A stretch of DNA of 38,521 nucleotides, taken from contig JAGAFR010000042.1 in the NCBI GenBank assembly GCA_017612555.1, positions 1 to 38,521 on the forward strand, written 5' to 3'. This document shows, piece by piece, positions 17,866-35,766 of this stretch (within the stretch, counting starts at the first letter, position 1; each line of letters begins with the position of its first letter). Below the pieces are notes generated by a model. The model was not told the DNA's origin. It was given only the letters and a program-made list of their open reading frames with translations, and did no database searches. This stretch comes from Lachnospiraceae bacterium (lineage in GTDB: Bacteria > Bacillota > Clostridia > Lachnospirales > Lachnospiraceae). Position numbers and translations under genes: made by a program.

Positions 17866-19344
17866 ATGAAAAATCCTAAGCGGGTAGTTAACTATATCAA
17901 GGAACATCTGAATGAGGTAAAACATACAACCCTTAATCCGGAAGGACCGGGTGTTGTGCGTATACACATGGTCCCGCCCAAGTATGACGGGCCGGATCCG
18001 GTGAGCAGCGTTGTGATAATAAACGGGCAGGACATAATACCGATCAACGTTTCGTGGGCAGTTTTATTATCAATGCTGATAGATGCCATCAACGAATATC
18101 ACGGAAGACCGGTAAACGACGAGGATATCAAAAGTATAATCGATAGTACTATTATATCATCACGTAAAGTATATAAGCTTATACCGAAGTTCATCATCAA
18201 GAAGGATATCTACAGGATAATGAACACCTTCAAGCAGATCGCCTACGGCGAAAAGCCTGACGAGTTCATCGAATACATCAATATCGGTGAATATGCCGAA
18301 CACATGAGGGCGCCCCACAGGATGGACCTTATGGTGTCTGCAATGACAAAGAGCGGAAAGTGGAATTGTAATCAGTGCTGCGTTCACTGCTATGCGGCGG
18401 GACAGGATCAGGCTGATGAAGAAGAACTGTCTACGCAGGAATGGAAGGAGATCATCGATAAGTGCAGGCAGGTATGCATTCCGCAGGTGACCTTTACCGG
18501 AGGTGAACCTACGATGAGGGATGACCTTATCGAACTTATCGATCATGCAAGATGGTTCGTGACCAGGCTCAATACGAACGGTATCAAGCTGACGAAGGAT
18601 TACTGCAGGCAACTGACGGATGCTTCGCTTGACAGCGTACAGATAACGTTTTATTCATGCGATAAGGACATACACAATGAACTGGTCGGATCCGATTCGT
18701 ATGATAAAACTCTTGACGGTATTAAGAATGCGGTTGAAGCGGGACTTAATCTAAGTATCAATACTCCGCTTTGCACAAGAAACAAAGATTATAAAAAGAC
18801 GCTTGAATTTCTTCACGGACTCGGGGTCACATATGTAACATGCTCGGGACTTATCACAACAGGAAATGCCAGGCTGCAAAGATCCGAAGACTTAAGGCTG
18901 TCCGAGACAGAGATCAAAGATGTTCTGAAACAGGCGGTAGACTATGCATATGCAAATGATATGGAGATAAGCTTTACTTCTCCGGGATGGATAGATGAAG
19001 AATTCTTCCATGAGAACGGACTGACCGTCCCGGTATGCGGAGCGTGCCTTTCCAATATGGCCATAACTCCGGGCGGAAACGTTGTTCCGTGCCAGAGTTG
19101 GCTGACCGACGGGAATCTCGGCAATTTCCTCGAGGATGACTGGGAGAAGATATGGTACAGCGGAAAATGCCGCAACAGAAGGGATTACTCCGCGATGATG
19201 ACAGGGCTGTGTCCACTGCAGATAGGAGGGGCCCCGCGAAGTGGGGAGAGCCTGTCTGCACCGCGAGCCCCCATCGACGAAGTCGATTCAAATGGGCGAG
19301 CGTCCGTAAATACGCAAGAAGGAGGGGCTGACGATGAGAAATAA
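17866..19344 (+). CDS. Radical SAM/SPASM protein, likely protein or peptide maturase
   Basis: A 492-residue cytoplasmic radical SAM enzyme. A 150-residue N-terminal region (about 45-105 could be a PqqD/RRE-like recognition domain, inference) precedes the cluster motif C168-x3-C172-x2-C175, with an extra C171. TGGEPTMRDDL (211-221) is the SAM-binding GGEP motif. A SPASM-type auxiliary cluster region has Cys at 391, 394, 409, 435 and 449. SPASM enzymes commonly modify ribosomally made peptides. ATG 17866 has AAAGGAC upstream; the frame is open further back only through the metY promoter. The last roughly 38 residues are encoded by a structured DNA element and look unlike the family. The stop lies 11 bases inside the next gene, which encodes a likely substrate. 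Confidence 0.85.
   Translation: MKNPKRVVNYIKEHLNEVKHTTLNPEGPGVVRIHMVPPKYDGPDPVSSVVIINGQDIIPINVSWAVLLSMLIDAINEYHGRPVNDEDIKSIIDSTIISSRKVYKLIPKFIIKKDIYRIMNTFKQIAYGEKPDEFIEYINIGEYAEHMRAPHRMDLMVSAMTKSGKWNCNQCCVHCYAAGQDQADEEELSTQEWKEIIDKCRQVCIPQVTFTGGEPTMRDDLIELIDHARWFVTRLNTNGIKLTKDYCRQLTDASLDSVQITFYSCDKDIHNELVGSDSYDKTLDGIKNAVEAGLNLSINTPLCTRNKDYKKTLEFLHGLGVTYVTCSGLITTGNARLQRSEDLRLSETEIKDVLKQAVDYAYANDMEISFTSPGWIDEEFFHENGLTVPVCGACLSNMAITPGGNVVPCQSWLTDGNLGNFLEDDWEKIWYSGKCRNRRDYSAMMTGLCPLQIGGAPRSGESLSAPRAPIDEVDSNGRASVNTQEGGADDEK
19217..19316 (+). repeat. Structured element X, related to element Y in the S10 leader
   Basis: About 100 bases overlapping the radical SAM 3' end. TGCAGATAGG (19217-19226) pairs with CCTGTCTGCA (19251-19260, one G-T pair) around a CCCCGC-GAA-GTGGGG hairpin. 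Then comes GAGCCCCC, an ATCGAC-GAA-GTCGAT hairpin (19273-19287) and AAATGGGCGAGCGTCC. Element Y at 35592-35644 has the same order with ATCGCC-GAA-GGCGAT, which is a compensatory change. X ends directly before the ribosome binding site of the next gene, so it may regulate it. No known RNA family was recognised. Confidence 0.5.
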
Positions 19345-20563
19345 GTTAACGGTATTTGTAATAACCCTTCTTGCAGGAATACTCCTGTTTGCAACACCTG
19401 TTATGGCAGACACCGACAGGATCGAGAATTATACGATCACTGTTGATGTCAATGATGATGCAACACTTAATCTGACTTACCATATCGACTGGCAGGTACT
19501 TGATTCGGGATCGGGTATAGGCCCCCTTACGTGGATGAAGATCGGAATTCCGAACAGTCACGTTGTTAAGATGGAAGGTCTTAGCAATACGGTAGACCAT
19601 ATCAATCATTCAGGTAACTACGCAGAGGTATATCTGGACAAGAAATACTATGAAGGTGAGACGGCAAGCGTAGATTTTCTTGTGGTTCAGGACTATATGT
19701 ATCAGGTGAACAAGCTGAAGGAAGGTGAGACGGTATATTCCTTTACTCCCGGCTGGTTTGATGATATCAAAGTAGATAACCTGACGATCAAATGGAACAA
19801 TGATAAAGCAGTTTCGTTTACTCCGGAGTGCTCCATCGAGGGTGATTACAATGTATGGAATACAAGTCTCGGAAAGGGTGATCGATTTTCCGTAACTATG
19901 ACATATCCCAACGATGCGTATGCATTCGATCTGTCCAAGAGTGCAGAGGCAGACGAAGGAGACAGCATAAGTGATGCTATAGCCACATTTATCGGTGGTC
20001 TGTTCTGCCTGCTTATGACCGGAGGAATCATCGCATTCCCGATATTCATAGGATATCTGTTCAACCGCGGATTCGGATACACCAATAAGCCTACCATAAC
20101 CAAGACTACGCGTACGAAGATCACATATTTCGACTCGTGTCCGGGATGTGGTGCTCCGCGTAAGGAAGGGGCCAAGTTCTGCGAGTACTGTGGCAAGTCA
20201 CTTGTTAAGAGTGAAGAGACAATCACCGATGAACAGCTCAAGAAGGAGGAAAAGGCTGCGGCTTCGTTTACCAAGAACGGCGAGTTCAGGTACGGGTCGT
20301 CTCCGAATACATTTATAAGAGTCAGCTCGATAAGTGTTCCCAATCCGAGTTATCGTGCTCCTTCGAGAAGTTCGAGCGGACATCACAGCTCATGTGCCCA
20401 CAGCTCATGTGCGTGTGCCTGCGCATGTGCATGTGCCGGCGGCGGAAGAGCCGGATGTACGACCAAGGATTTTTACAACACGAACCTTAAACTGGCGGCG
20501 CTTGCCAGGGCACTTGATATAAAGGAAGCAAATAAAGGATCGAATGGAAAAGAAGATAAGTGA
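19334..20563 (+). CDS. Secreted/membrane protein with zinc ribbon and Cys-Ala repeat tail (candidate maturase substrate)
   Basis: A 409-residue protein. A signal peptide (1-25, ending PVMA) leads to an extracytoplasmic beta-rich domain (about 28-195, loosely DUF2207-like). A membrane segment follows at about 214-243, then a cytoplasmic zinc ribbon with CPGC (269-272) and CEYC (283-286). A Ser/His-rich linker leads to SSC354-AHSS-C359 and five Cys-Ala units (359-368), then GGGRAGC375 and TTKDFYNTN. Seven tail cysteines in 22 residues are exceptional. Codons of the CA units vary (TGT/TGC, GCG/GCC/GCA), so it is not a simple DNA microsatellite. The tail would face the cytoplasm, where the overlapping upstream radical SAM enzyme could reach it. 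GGAGGGG precedes the ATG. The function is not known. Confidence 0.8.
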   Translation: MRNKLTVFVITLLAGILLFATPVMADTDRIENYTITVDVNDDATLNLTYHIDWQVLDSGSGIGPLTWMKIGIPNSHVVKMEGLSNTVDHINHSGNYAEVYLDKKYYEGETASVDFLVVQDYMYQVNKLKEGETVYSFTPGWFDDIKVDNLTIKWNNDKAVSFTPECSIEGDYNVWNTSLGKGDRFSVTMTYPNDAYAFDLSKSAEADEGDSISDAIATFIGGLFCLLMTGGIIAFPIFIGYLFNRGFGYTNKPTITKTTRTKITYFDSCPGCGAPRKEGAKFCEYCGKSLVKSEETITDEQLKKEEKAAASFTKNGEFRYGSSPNTFIRVSSISVPNPSYRAPSRSSSGHHSSCAHSSCACACACACAGGGRAGCTTKDFYNTNLKLAALARALDIKEANKGSNGKEDK

Positions 20564-21479
20564 CATCGTATCAAATGAGGCAAAGGCGATCGATGCGATC
20601 ATAGAGGAGTTCCTTCCTGCAGAGGAGGGATGCGCCAAGACGGTCATGACCGCCATGAATTACAGCATCCATGTCGGCGGAAAAAGGCTACGTCCGATGT
20701 TCATGCAAAAGACATATGAGATGTTCGGCGGTACTGATGAAGAGATCATTCATCCGTTCATGGCTGCGATCGAGATGATACATACATACTCGCTCTGTCA
20801 TGACGATCTTCCGGCCATGGACAATGATGATATGCGTCGCGGAAAGAAGAGCACTCATGCGATGTTCGGTGAAGCAATGGGAATTCTGGCGGGTGACGGA
20901 CTGTTAAACTATGCGTTTGAGACAGCGATCGGAGCATTCGACCTTGTCGGGGATGCTGATGAAGCAGGACAGATCAGGCGCATCAGCAGGGCGCTTGGCG
21001 TTCTTGCCAATAAAGCCGGCATATACGGGATGATAGCAGGCCAGGTTGTGGATATCGAGTCGGAAGATAAACCTGCAGGTGAAGTGACGATGGACACCAT
21101 ACGGTTTATTCATGAGAACAAGACCGCAGCAATGATCGAATCCTCCATGATGATAGGAGCGATCCTGGCAGGAGCGTCAGATGAAGAGGTAAGAACGGTT
21201 GAACAGATCGGATCGGATATTGGACTGGCATTTCAGATACAGGATGACATACTGGATATAACCGGATCTGATGATGTTCTCGGAAAACCTACGGGGAGCG
21301 ATACTAAGAACAACAAGACCACGTATGTGACACTTGTGGGACTTGACAGGGCAAAAGAGGATGTTAAAACCGTATCGCAGCGGGCGGTAGAAAACCTTTC
21401 CAAACTGCCGGGAAGCGGCAGCATGGCAGGGATCTTTCTTGCCGAGCTGATCGGATATCTTATTGTTAGGGACAGGTAG
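20544..21479 (+). CDS. ispA: Polyprenyl (farnesyl/geranylgeranyl) diphosphate synthase
   Basis: A 311-residue all-alpha prenyltransferase that extends DMAPP with IPP. SIHVGGKRLRPMF is the first conserved region, and the first aspartate-rich motif is CHDDLPAMDNDDMRRGK, the short-chain insert form. The second aspartate motif is AFQIQDDILD, followed by GKPTGSDTKNNKTTYVTLVG. The two-residue insertion between the Asp residues of the first motif fits FPP/GGPP synthases of the bacterial IspA type. It overlaps the preceding gene by 20 bases. No other isoprenoid or xse genes lie nearby, so co-expression with the radical SAM pair is positional only. Confidence 0.92.
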   Translation: MEKKISDIVSNEAKAIDAIIEEFLPAEEGCAKTVMTAMNYSIHVGGKRLRPMFMQKTYEMFGGTDEEIIHPFMAAIEMIHTYSLCHDDLPAMDNDDMRRGKKSTHAMFGEAMGILAGDGLLNYAFETAIGAFDLVGDADEAGQIRRISRALGVLANKAGIYGMIAGQVVDIESEDKPAGEVTMDTIRFIHENKTAAMIESSMMIGAILAGASDEEVRTVEQIGSDIGLAFQIQDDILDITGSDDVLGKPTGSDTKNNKTTYVTLVGLDRAKEDVKTVSQRAVENLSKLPGSGSMAGIFLAELIGYLIVRDR

Positions 21480-35392: not shown

Positions 35393-35766
35393 TGCTGTGA
35401 CATTGATAGCGATGAAATCAGAGATTGCTGCTATCTGCAGTCCTTGATCTGCAGAGTGCAGGTAACTCGGTGGAGCGAATGTCAAGTTAGAAAACTGGCG
35501 ACAAGTCACTGTATACTATGTTGCTAGGGGGAACCGCGAGATATCTTGCACGAAGTGCGAGATGCCACCCGGCGAGGGCGGTGGGACCCTGGCTACACCG
35601 GGAGCCCCCTATCGCCGAAGGCGATTTAAAATGGGCGACCGTCCTTGGAAAGAGGAAGAAATACTGTGTATGATCTTGTTATTACTCAGGACACACACGG
35701 GAGAGTGTACAGTCACCGCTTGTCTCACTTATCTTTAGAAAGTGCGAAAAGGAGGCGACTTTTTTT
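35393..35766 (+). promoter_or_regulatory. Long structured leader of the S10 operon
   Basis: About 370 nt without a convincing gene. The 5' half has GATAGC/GCTATC (35407-35437), CTGCAG/CTGCAG (35438-35457) and an AGTT-AGAA-AACT hairpin (35485-35497). The 3' half is element Y. A 22-codon open frame (35669-35737) lacks a well-placed ribosome binding site. The leader ends with AAGGAGG before rpsJ. Such leaders often host ribosomal-protein autoregulation, but no known leader family was recognised here. Confidence 0.55.
35522..35655 (+). ncRNA. Structured element Y in the S10 leader
   Basis: TAGGGGG (35525-35531) pairs perfectly with CCCCCTA (35605-35611) and closes a multi-branch structure. Inside are ATCTTGCAC-GAA-GTGCGAGAT (35543-35563), a CCACC/GGTGG hairpin (35565-35584) and CCCTGG/CCGGG (35587-35602). 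After the closing stem comes ATCGCC-GAA-GGCGAT (35610-35624), then AAATGGGCGACCGTCC. From about 35588 onward it aligns base for base with element X at 19251-19305, with compensatory changes in the last hairpin. Confidence 0.55.

Follow-up and report, generated by a model that had tools for sequence, protein, structure and literature searches.

A radical SAM enzyme gene coupled to a membrane protein with a cysteine-alanine tail: a putative peptide-type modification system in Lachnospiraceae and their relatives

The contig JAGAFR010000042.1 of a Lachnospiraceae bacterium (assembly GCA_017612555.1), whose full 38,521 nucleotides are called the window below, carries a unit of two genes that code for a radical S-adenosylmethionine (SAM) enzyme and a neighbouring membrane protein ending in a cysteine-alanine (Cys-Ala) tail. 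The unit suggests that the enzyme may remodel part of an intact membrane protein, in the manner of the enzymes that mature ribosomally synthesised and post-translationally modified peptides (RiPPs).

The two-gene unit and its cysteine-alanine tail

The features of the unit, with the evidence for each, are as follows (pLDDT, predicted local distance difference test; RRE, RiPP recognition element).

17866..19344, forward strand: radical SAM/Twitch-SPASM enzyme, 492 amino acids; Pfam Radical_SAM and SPASM, AlphaFold model, fold matches
17866..18345, forward strand: enzyme N-terminal domain, about residues 1-160; candidate substrate-binding (RRE-like) domain, from the secondary structure of the model
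18367..18390, forward strand: CxxxCxxC cluster motif (C168, C172, C175); from sequence, invariant in 43 aligned enzymes
19036..19212, forward strand: auxiliary-cluster region (C391, C394, C409, C435, C449); reduced SPASM, Twitch-like, from cysteine conservation
19222..19341, forward strand: enzyme C-terminal extension outside the core; pLDDT below 50 at residues 455-492, partly an interspersed repeat
19334..20563, forward strand: tail-bearing membrane protein, 409 amino acids; the gene starts inside the end of the enzyme gene
19415..19909, forward strand: beta-sandwich domain, residues 28-192; from the model, presumed extracellular, with a remote resemblance to DUF2207
19967..20065, forward strand: single transmembrane helix, residues 212-244; model and hydropathy
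20138..20203, forward strand: zinc ribbon, residues 269-290, accessory; Pfam Zn_Ribbon_1, E value 7.7e-6
20393..20476, forward strand: Cys-Ala tail, residues 354-381 (CAHSSCACACACACAGGGRAGCTTKDFY), the proposed modified region; conservation

The end of the enzyme gene and the start of the membrane-protein gene overlapped by 11 bases (19334-19344), so that the enzyme stop lies inside the next gene, as an earlier note on this DNA had described for the same positions. Seven cysteines fell within 22 residues of the tail (354-375), a density matched in one of 20,000 shuffles of the protein's residues, which bears out the cluster near the C-terminus that the same note had read. The tail was predicted to be disordered, with a model pLDDT below 50 at residues 339-382. 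Its conservation exceeded that of the rest of the protein: among 41 aligned membrane proteins there were 35 invariant columns, 20 of which lay in residues 359-381. Over 79 distinct tails, each with 5 to 10 cysteines, cysteine was followed by alanine in 528 of 560 cases, or in 370 of 402 when the two built into the search motif were set aside; the tails for this count and for the codon comparison were picked by motif, and the motif letters are thus conserved by construction. In clade 1, the lineage of the window, the GGGRAGC and KDFY positions were as invariant as the Cys-Ala units, and the repeats were interrupted by irregular inserts (HSS, SS, VS). No Pfam or NCBIfam model seen spans the tail.

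We rejected a chance or DNA-level repeat as the origin of the tail because synonymous codons vary. Every codon position of CACAGGGRAGC showed synonymous variation across 69 tails (the comparison held 83 rows for the 79 distinct tails, some clade-2 tails being counted twice), and the Cys and Ala codons differed at wobble positions both in the window tail and in its relatives, which agrees with the protein-level selection on the Cys-Ala units proposed earlier.

Outside the tail, hydropathy gave two hydrophobic segments, one at the N-terminus and the other at residues 211-244, and the structural model gave a confident beta-sandwich at 28-192, one long helix at 212-244 and then Lys/Arg-rich sequence. 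By the positive-inside rule, an acidic stretch ahead of the helix and a basic stretch behind it put the tail on the cytoplasmic side. From hydropathy, charge and the model, we infer that the beta-sandwich is outside the cell and the tail inside. Foldseek matched the model to Ost1/ribophorin and to M1 aminopeptidases; the place of the alignments was not given, and we take them to cover the beta-sandwich, for which a binding or sensing role would be a guess. The DUF2207 model (PF09972) scored the window protein at 17.1 bits and that of locus L099 at 22.3 bits, both below its cut-off of 24.4, and had no Pfam match in L082, L061, L064, L103, L151 and L154; NCBIfam returned two weak matches only for the membrane protein. 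The zinc ribbon was missing from the tail-bearing proteins of L056, L061, L064, L103 and L099 and was therefore rejected as a core part. Thus, of the architecture in the earlier note, the N-terminal hydrophobic segment, outer domain, single helix and tail were recovered, and the zinc ribbon is present without belonging to the core.

Co-occurrence of the enzyme and the tail across genomes

A genome contig scan with the membrane protein yielded 57 loci, labelled mostly as Lachnospiraceae and also as Oscillospiraceae/Ruminococcaceae, Coriobacteriaceae/Eggerthellaceae, Clostridia, Bacilli and Spirochaetes. The enzyme and the tail protein adjoined in 52 of the 57 (51 by motif count alone, L009 being added by its 80% identical enzyme). 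Among the other five, the sequence starts within the membrane-protein gene in L028 and L050 and stops within it in L052 and L054 (L028 and L052 come from one assembly), and L059 matched by the zinc ribbon only. One of the six patterns in the scan behind these loci and alignment A2 was part of the tail, which biases them toward tails. Whole genomes were therefore searched with separate enzyme and tail profiles to reduce this bias.

In the family sample of 150 genomes (cut-offs E 1e-60 for the enzyme and 0.01 for the tail), the enzyme was found in 13 and the tail in 14; the 13 were shared, enzyme and tail lying roughly 1 kb apart (Fisher 5e-19, the weak match G511 excluded). The fourteenth tail match, in G511 (E 0.0076), was a 59-residue frame with a stop and without a Cys-Ala repeat. 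An ectodomain profile found the same 13 genomes and G479 (L137/L138), which gave no enzyme match and encodes a distant ectodomain protein (74 bits) with a hydrophobic helix but no tail. The G479 protein adjoins a DUF5131 protein, outside the enzyme group. In a class sample of 149 genomes around the Coriobacteriaceae-labelled G549, that genome alone gave strong matches for both enzyme and tail; the weak extras were the G570 enzyme (157 bits) and tail matches in G581 and G646.

In the phylum sample of 398 genomes, where at most four enzyme candidates were scored per genome, a profile of the clade-1 enzymes detected ten distant enzymes besides that of the window, and the tail profile found the window, the eight of these ten with a readable partner, and three weak matches. 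A mixed enzyme profile separated the window and the ten (681-738 bits), G012 (507), G007, G127 and G093 (400-405) and G009, G283 and G096 (231-242) from enzymes at 186 bits or less. Thus, 18 of the 398 genomes held an enzyme of the group, and a membrane-protein neighbour stood beside it in all 18; the Cys-rich tail was visible in 17 (in G230 cut by the contig end), and in G345 it was unreadable. The enzymes at 186 bits or less, in 88 of the 106 phylum genomes passing 1e-45, were taken as other SPASM enzymes, with the neighbours inspected in one of the 88, G017 (L157), and so was that of G570 (L170), whose neighbours were also inspected. The tail search gave no further strong match in the genomes with low-scoring enzymes, a search in which profile A4 would miss (ACHS)n repeats. 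The weak tail matches in G015, G267, G511, G581 and G646 (E 0.0027-0.0090) were left out after a scripted search found no Cys-Ala repeat, and the weak match in G012 proved real.

The partners differed in repeat and gene order over four lineages. Beside eight of the ten distant enzymes the membrane protein could be read; it has no zinc ribbon, and its tail takes the form ...CVSCACACVSCACACACAGG[RG]GAGC[TA]xKF. For the other two, the G230 tail is cut after SCACAC and the G345 gene starts with the remainder masked. G012 represents a third lineage, in which a longer protein with a hydrophobic stretch ends in SCACACACACAGGGGCT and has its own radical SAM/SPASM gene directly 3', in reversed order. 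In G007, G127 and G093 the membrane protein also comes first and ends in SSCACACACACASSGGCT; in G009, G283 and G096 the enzyme gene is overlapped by that of a protein that has a hydrophobic stretch and terminates in ACHSACHDACHSAC...HSACVSGGAR. The order was reversed in these seven genomes, two of the four lineages, and the last three have the changed repeat (ACHS)n. A related ectodomain and membrane helix are kept in the tail-bearing protein of clades 1 and 2; in clades 3 and 4 the partner is a putative counterpart whose helix was read by eye. A long (ACHS)n repeat forms the end of a hydrophobic-stretch protein beside a SPASM enzyme in L154, L155 and L156; the Cys-His repeat of L154 matched no Pfam or NCBIfam model.

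Cases of a tail without the enzyme and of the enzyme without a tail were looked for both ways, and no readable one was found in the 150 family genomes, at the enzyme cut-off of 1e-60, or in the 398 phylum genomes, at up to four enzyme candidates each, which supports the idea in the earlier note that the tail occurs only beside this enzyme.

When 492 predicted proteins of at least 90 residues from 56 loci (L003-L058) were clustered, with crude gene calling, only the pair recurred broadly (48 and 46 loci), and no third gene of that length occurred in more than 12 of the 56; the largest of the minor neighbour families sits in the loci most like the window. Among 3,197 short open reading frames (ORFs; 25-89 residues) near these loci, the example of each of the 12 commonest families lay within the pair, in another frame or strand. 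These results indicated that there is no broadly conserved peptidase, exporter (56 loci, ORFs of at least 90 residues) or short precursor with leader and core; in the lineages read, what accompanies the enzyme is a long Cys-rich membrane protein. It is accordingly very improbable that the tail is cleaved and released as a peptide, as in a conventional RiPP system. Some SPASM clusters without a local peptidase do rely on a general one, and an ATP-binding cassette (ABC) transporter ATPase with an FtsX/MacB-type permease lies near the pair in six loci (L034, L036, L039, L040, L041 and L046); however, no peptidase or exporter is broadly recurrent beside the pair, and in clades 1 and 2 the ectodomain and helix stay with the tail.

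The same data bear on another possibility, in which the tail would stay unmodified and serve as a cysteine array that binds metal or iron-sulfur clusters; the enzyme would use it as a partner, for instance as a source of electrons or clusters, and would have another true substrate. The Cys-rich repeats, Cys-His-rich in one lineage, resemble metal-binding arrays, and their number varies as in metallothionein-like regions, which have variable repeat number. However, no second substrate gene of at least 90 residues broadly accompanies the pair, the one-to-one coupling and the fold relatives fit an enzyme and its substrate, and the invariant GGGRAGC and KDFY of clade 1 are not obviously needed by a plain metal array. 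We thus regard such an array as quite unlikely.

Several further features of the loci were observed. In L036, L039, L040, L041 and L046, five of the six loci with the transporter genes, a single enzyme gene lies between the genes of two tail proteins, the second of them in the opposite orientation. In the window, a gene that we take to be polyprenyl synthetase-like (20544-21479) overlaps the 3' end of the tail gene, and its relatives lie 3' of the pair in 12 loci, those closest to the window. A mobile element was considered and rejected: no enzyme match was found in plasmids at 1e-20, where only the enzyme was searched. A phage search with the membrane protein alone gave one match, L120 (MT837216.1), a human-faecal record labelled as an unverified bacteriophage; both genes of the pair are present in this record, which may be a fragment of bacterial DNA. 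Pattern matches in viral_contigs numbered 52, and no relative was among them.

The enzyme and its relatives

The enzyme matched Pfam Radical_SAM (PF04055, E 4.9e-21, 76 bits against a cut-off of 29.5) and SPASM (PF13186, E 1.9e-6, 28.5 bits against 21.5), which by sequence assigns it to the SPASM/Twitch subfamily of radical SAM enzymes. Among 43 aligned enzymes, picked by similarity and not by motif, C168, C172, C175, C391, C409, C435 and C449 were invariant and C394 was at least 90% conserved; the CxxxCxxC motif and five SPASM-region cysteines pointed out earlier are thus conserved. A cysteine map by clade, for which enzymes were picked by motif so that motif letters are conserved by construction, showed CxxxCxxC and five C-terminal cysteines in clade 1 (64 sequences with the window); the SPASM set of clades 2 and 3 (9 and 1 sequences) was more complete and closed with CxxCx5CxxxC. 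Taken together, these results established the genetic coupling, the conservation of the tail and the class of the enzyme.

The AlphaFold model of the enzyme had a pLDDT of 85.7. By sequence profile the closest solved structure was SkfB (2.6e-18), and the fold search of the window enzyme was led by SkfB, CteB (5wgg), SuiB and the anaerobic sulfatase-maturating enzymes (anSME), with TigE at rank 11 (template-modelling scores 0.42-0.55). Among 25 of the 62 matched NCBIfam models listed, none reached its cut-off; the top score was that of NirJ2, 103.8 bits against 500. PADLOC prokaryotic viperin gave 58.1 bits over enzyme residues 167-306, with no cut-off given, and no match for the membrane partner; only the radical SAM core matches viperin models, and we did not favour a role in anti-phage defence.

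Comparison with known systems brought out both likenesses and differences. The anSME share the fold and combine a SPASM enzyme with a large protein, but they act on another motif and on a sulfatase. The ACGX system (TIGR04340) has a SPASM enzyme named for a repeated short cysteine motif; the window enzyme, however, scored 53.2 bits against its cut-off of 400. CteB and the other ranthipeptide or SCIFF-type maturases, alike by the 5wgg fold match, carry out thioether chemistry on Cys-rich targets. CteB differs in its short precursor. It also has a full SPASM domain (PMC6231123). SkfB, described there as a Twitch thioether synthase with an RRE at its N-terminus and five conserved cysteines at its C-terminus (PMC6231123), is together with the sactisynthases the best solved relative by both profile and fold, and shares the five C-terminal cysteines and the Cys-rich target. 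The SkfB substrate is, however, a short peptide and not a 409-residue membrane protein, the pair here has no broadly conserved peptidase or exporter, and the window enzyme scored 56.5 bits against the SkfB family cut-off of 300 (TIGR04403). TvgB resembles the proposed system as a single SPASM enzyme acting many times along TVGG repeats, and repeated Asp-Cys peptides are listed beside it (PMC9062424). TvgB systems differ in having peptide precursors with TVGG or Asp-Cys motifs, the available part of PMC9062424 giving no membrane-protein substrate.

These relatives also bear on the chemistry. A tail modified without thioethers, by single-residue oxidation (such as formylglycine formation), epimerisation or carbon-carbon links, seems somewhat unlikely to us; it is a sub-case of modification, and the chance we give it overlaps with that of our best explanation. 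It draws on the place of anSME among the best fold matches, since anSME act on large proteins and sulfatase maturation converts cysteine to formylglycine, but the tail has no motif of the CxPxR type that marks sulfatases. The repeat-acting TvgB forms carbon-carbon bonds (PMC9062424), whereas the top sequence match among solved structures, SkfB, is a thioether synthase (PMC6231123). Because of the fold relatives and the Cys-rich target, we thus favoured a thioether as the likeliest chemistry.

The first 160 or so residues of the enzyme model consist of strands followed by three helices, an order that fits an RRE, with a mean column identity of 62% over 25 sequences. Alignment by hhalign of a single clade-3 sequence with PqqD was marginal (E 0.017, probability 2.7%), the distant clade-4 enzyme of L154 gave a weak PqqD match under the cut-off (E 0.011), and the AlbA model alignment extends through the N-terminus of the L082 and L154 enzymes. 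At the other end, the extension at residues 455-492 had a pLDDT below 50, and most relatives end sooner. A short interspersed repeat occurs there and elsewhere in the window (19248-19305 and 35585-35644, 83% identity over 60 bases); the copy in the 3' end of the enzyme gene is translated in frame and lengthens the protein, the second is intergenic, ahead of 35767, and a matching insert lies inside the enzyme genes of L005 and L051.

A proposed modification of a membrane-resident tail

We consider it probable that the pair works in a RiPP-like manner and that the enzyme modifies the cytoplasmic tail of a protein which remains in the membrane. The earlier note had proposed a core peptide built into the membrane protein and modified on the cytoplasmic side; the coupling and the peptide-modifying SPASM/Twitch fold relatives support this proposal, and the modification itself is what they would imply. 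In the proposed mechanism, the membrane protein would be inserted through the cell membrane with its beta-sandwich outside and its flexible Cys-rich tail in the cytoplasm, on the same side as the presumably cytoplasmic enzyme. The tail, as the likely substrate, would be bound through the N-terminal domain of the enzyme and the anchor GGGRAGC-S/T-x-K-D-F-Y, and the enzyme would act repeatedly along the Cys-Ala units. By analogy with SkfB- and CteB-type enzymes, the likeliest reaction would join cysteine sulfur to a carbon of a nearby residue, and the product would remain part of the membrane protein, with no cleavage and no export. The bond type and the role in the cell are guesses. Sactipeptides have one-to-one bridges; the variable repeat number and irregular inserts of the tails fit a repeat-acting enzyme such as TvgB better than fixed nested bridges. 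The pair does not belong to an ordinary RiPP class, for it lacks the short precursor and the accompanying peptidase or exporter.

Several observations weigh against this proposal. The tails have between 5 and 10 cysteines, for which no constant partner residue is apparent, and several SPASM cysteines of clades 2 and 3 are missing from the clade-1 enzyme, so that the chemistry may differ between clades. An RRE in clade-1 enzymes found no support in Pfam, in a PDB sequence search or in hhalign against three PqqD domains. At 231-242 bits, the enzymes of clade 4 are nearer to the 186-bit background and may be only distant relatives. The ABC transporter genes of the six loci and the four-candidate limit of the phylum search count on the same side.

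A more specific form of the proposal, which we hold tentatively and at somewhat less than even chance, is a ladder of cysteine-to-carbon links in the cytoplasmic tail of an intact transmembrane protein, made by a widespread and undescribed class of radical SAM enzymes; the links might be lanthionine- or sactionine-like rings from Cys to the neighbouring Ala. With the same reserve, such a ladder could amount to a RiPP-type module fixed permanently in the membrane, which four or more lineages, differing in their repeats, would have invented or remodelled. The pair has no name in any library model seen, and the matches listed in the full-text literature, outside which most subscription papers fall, held no description of it, which is not proof of absence.

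If this proposal is true, RiPP-type radical chemistry would also rebuild resident membrane proteins, beyond small exported peptides. It would give a function to a recurring unnamed enzyme group and to a tail motif unnamed in the libraries searched, within a clean two-gene system from gut and rumen anaerobes and some distant relatives.

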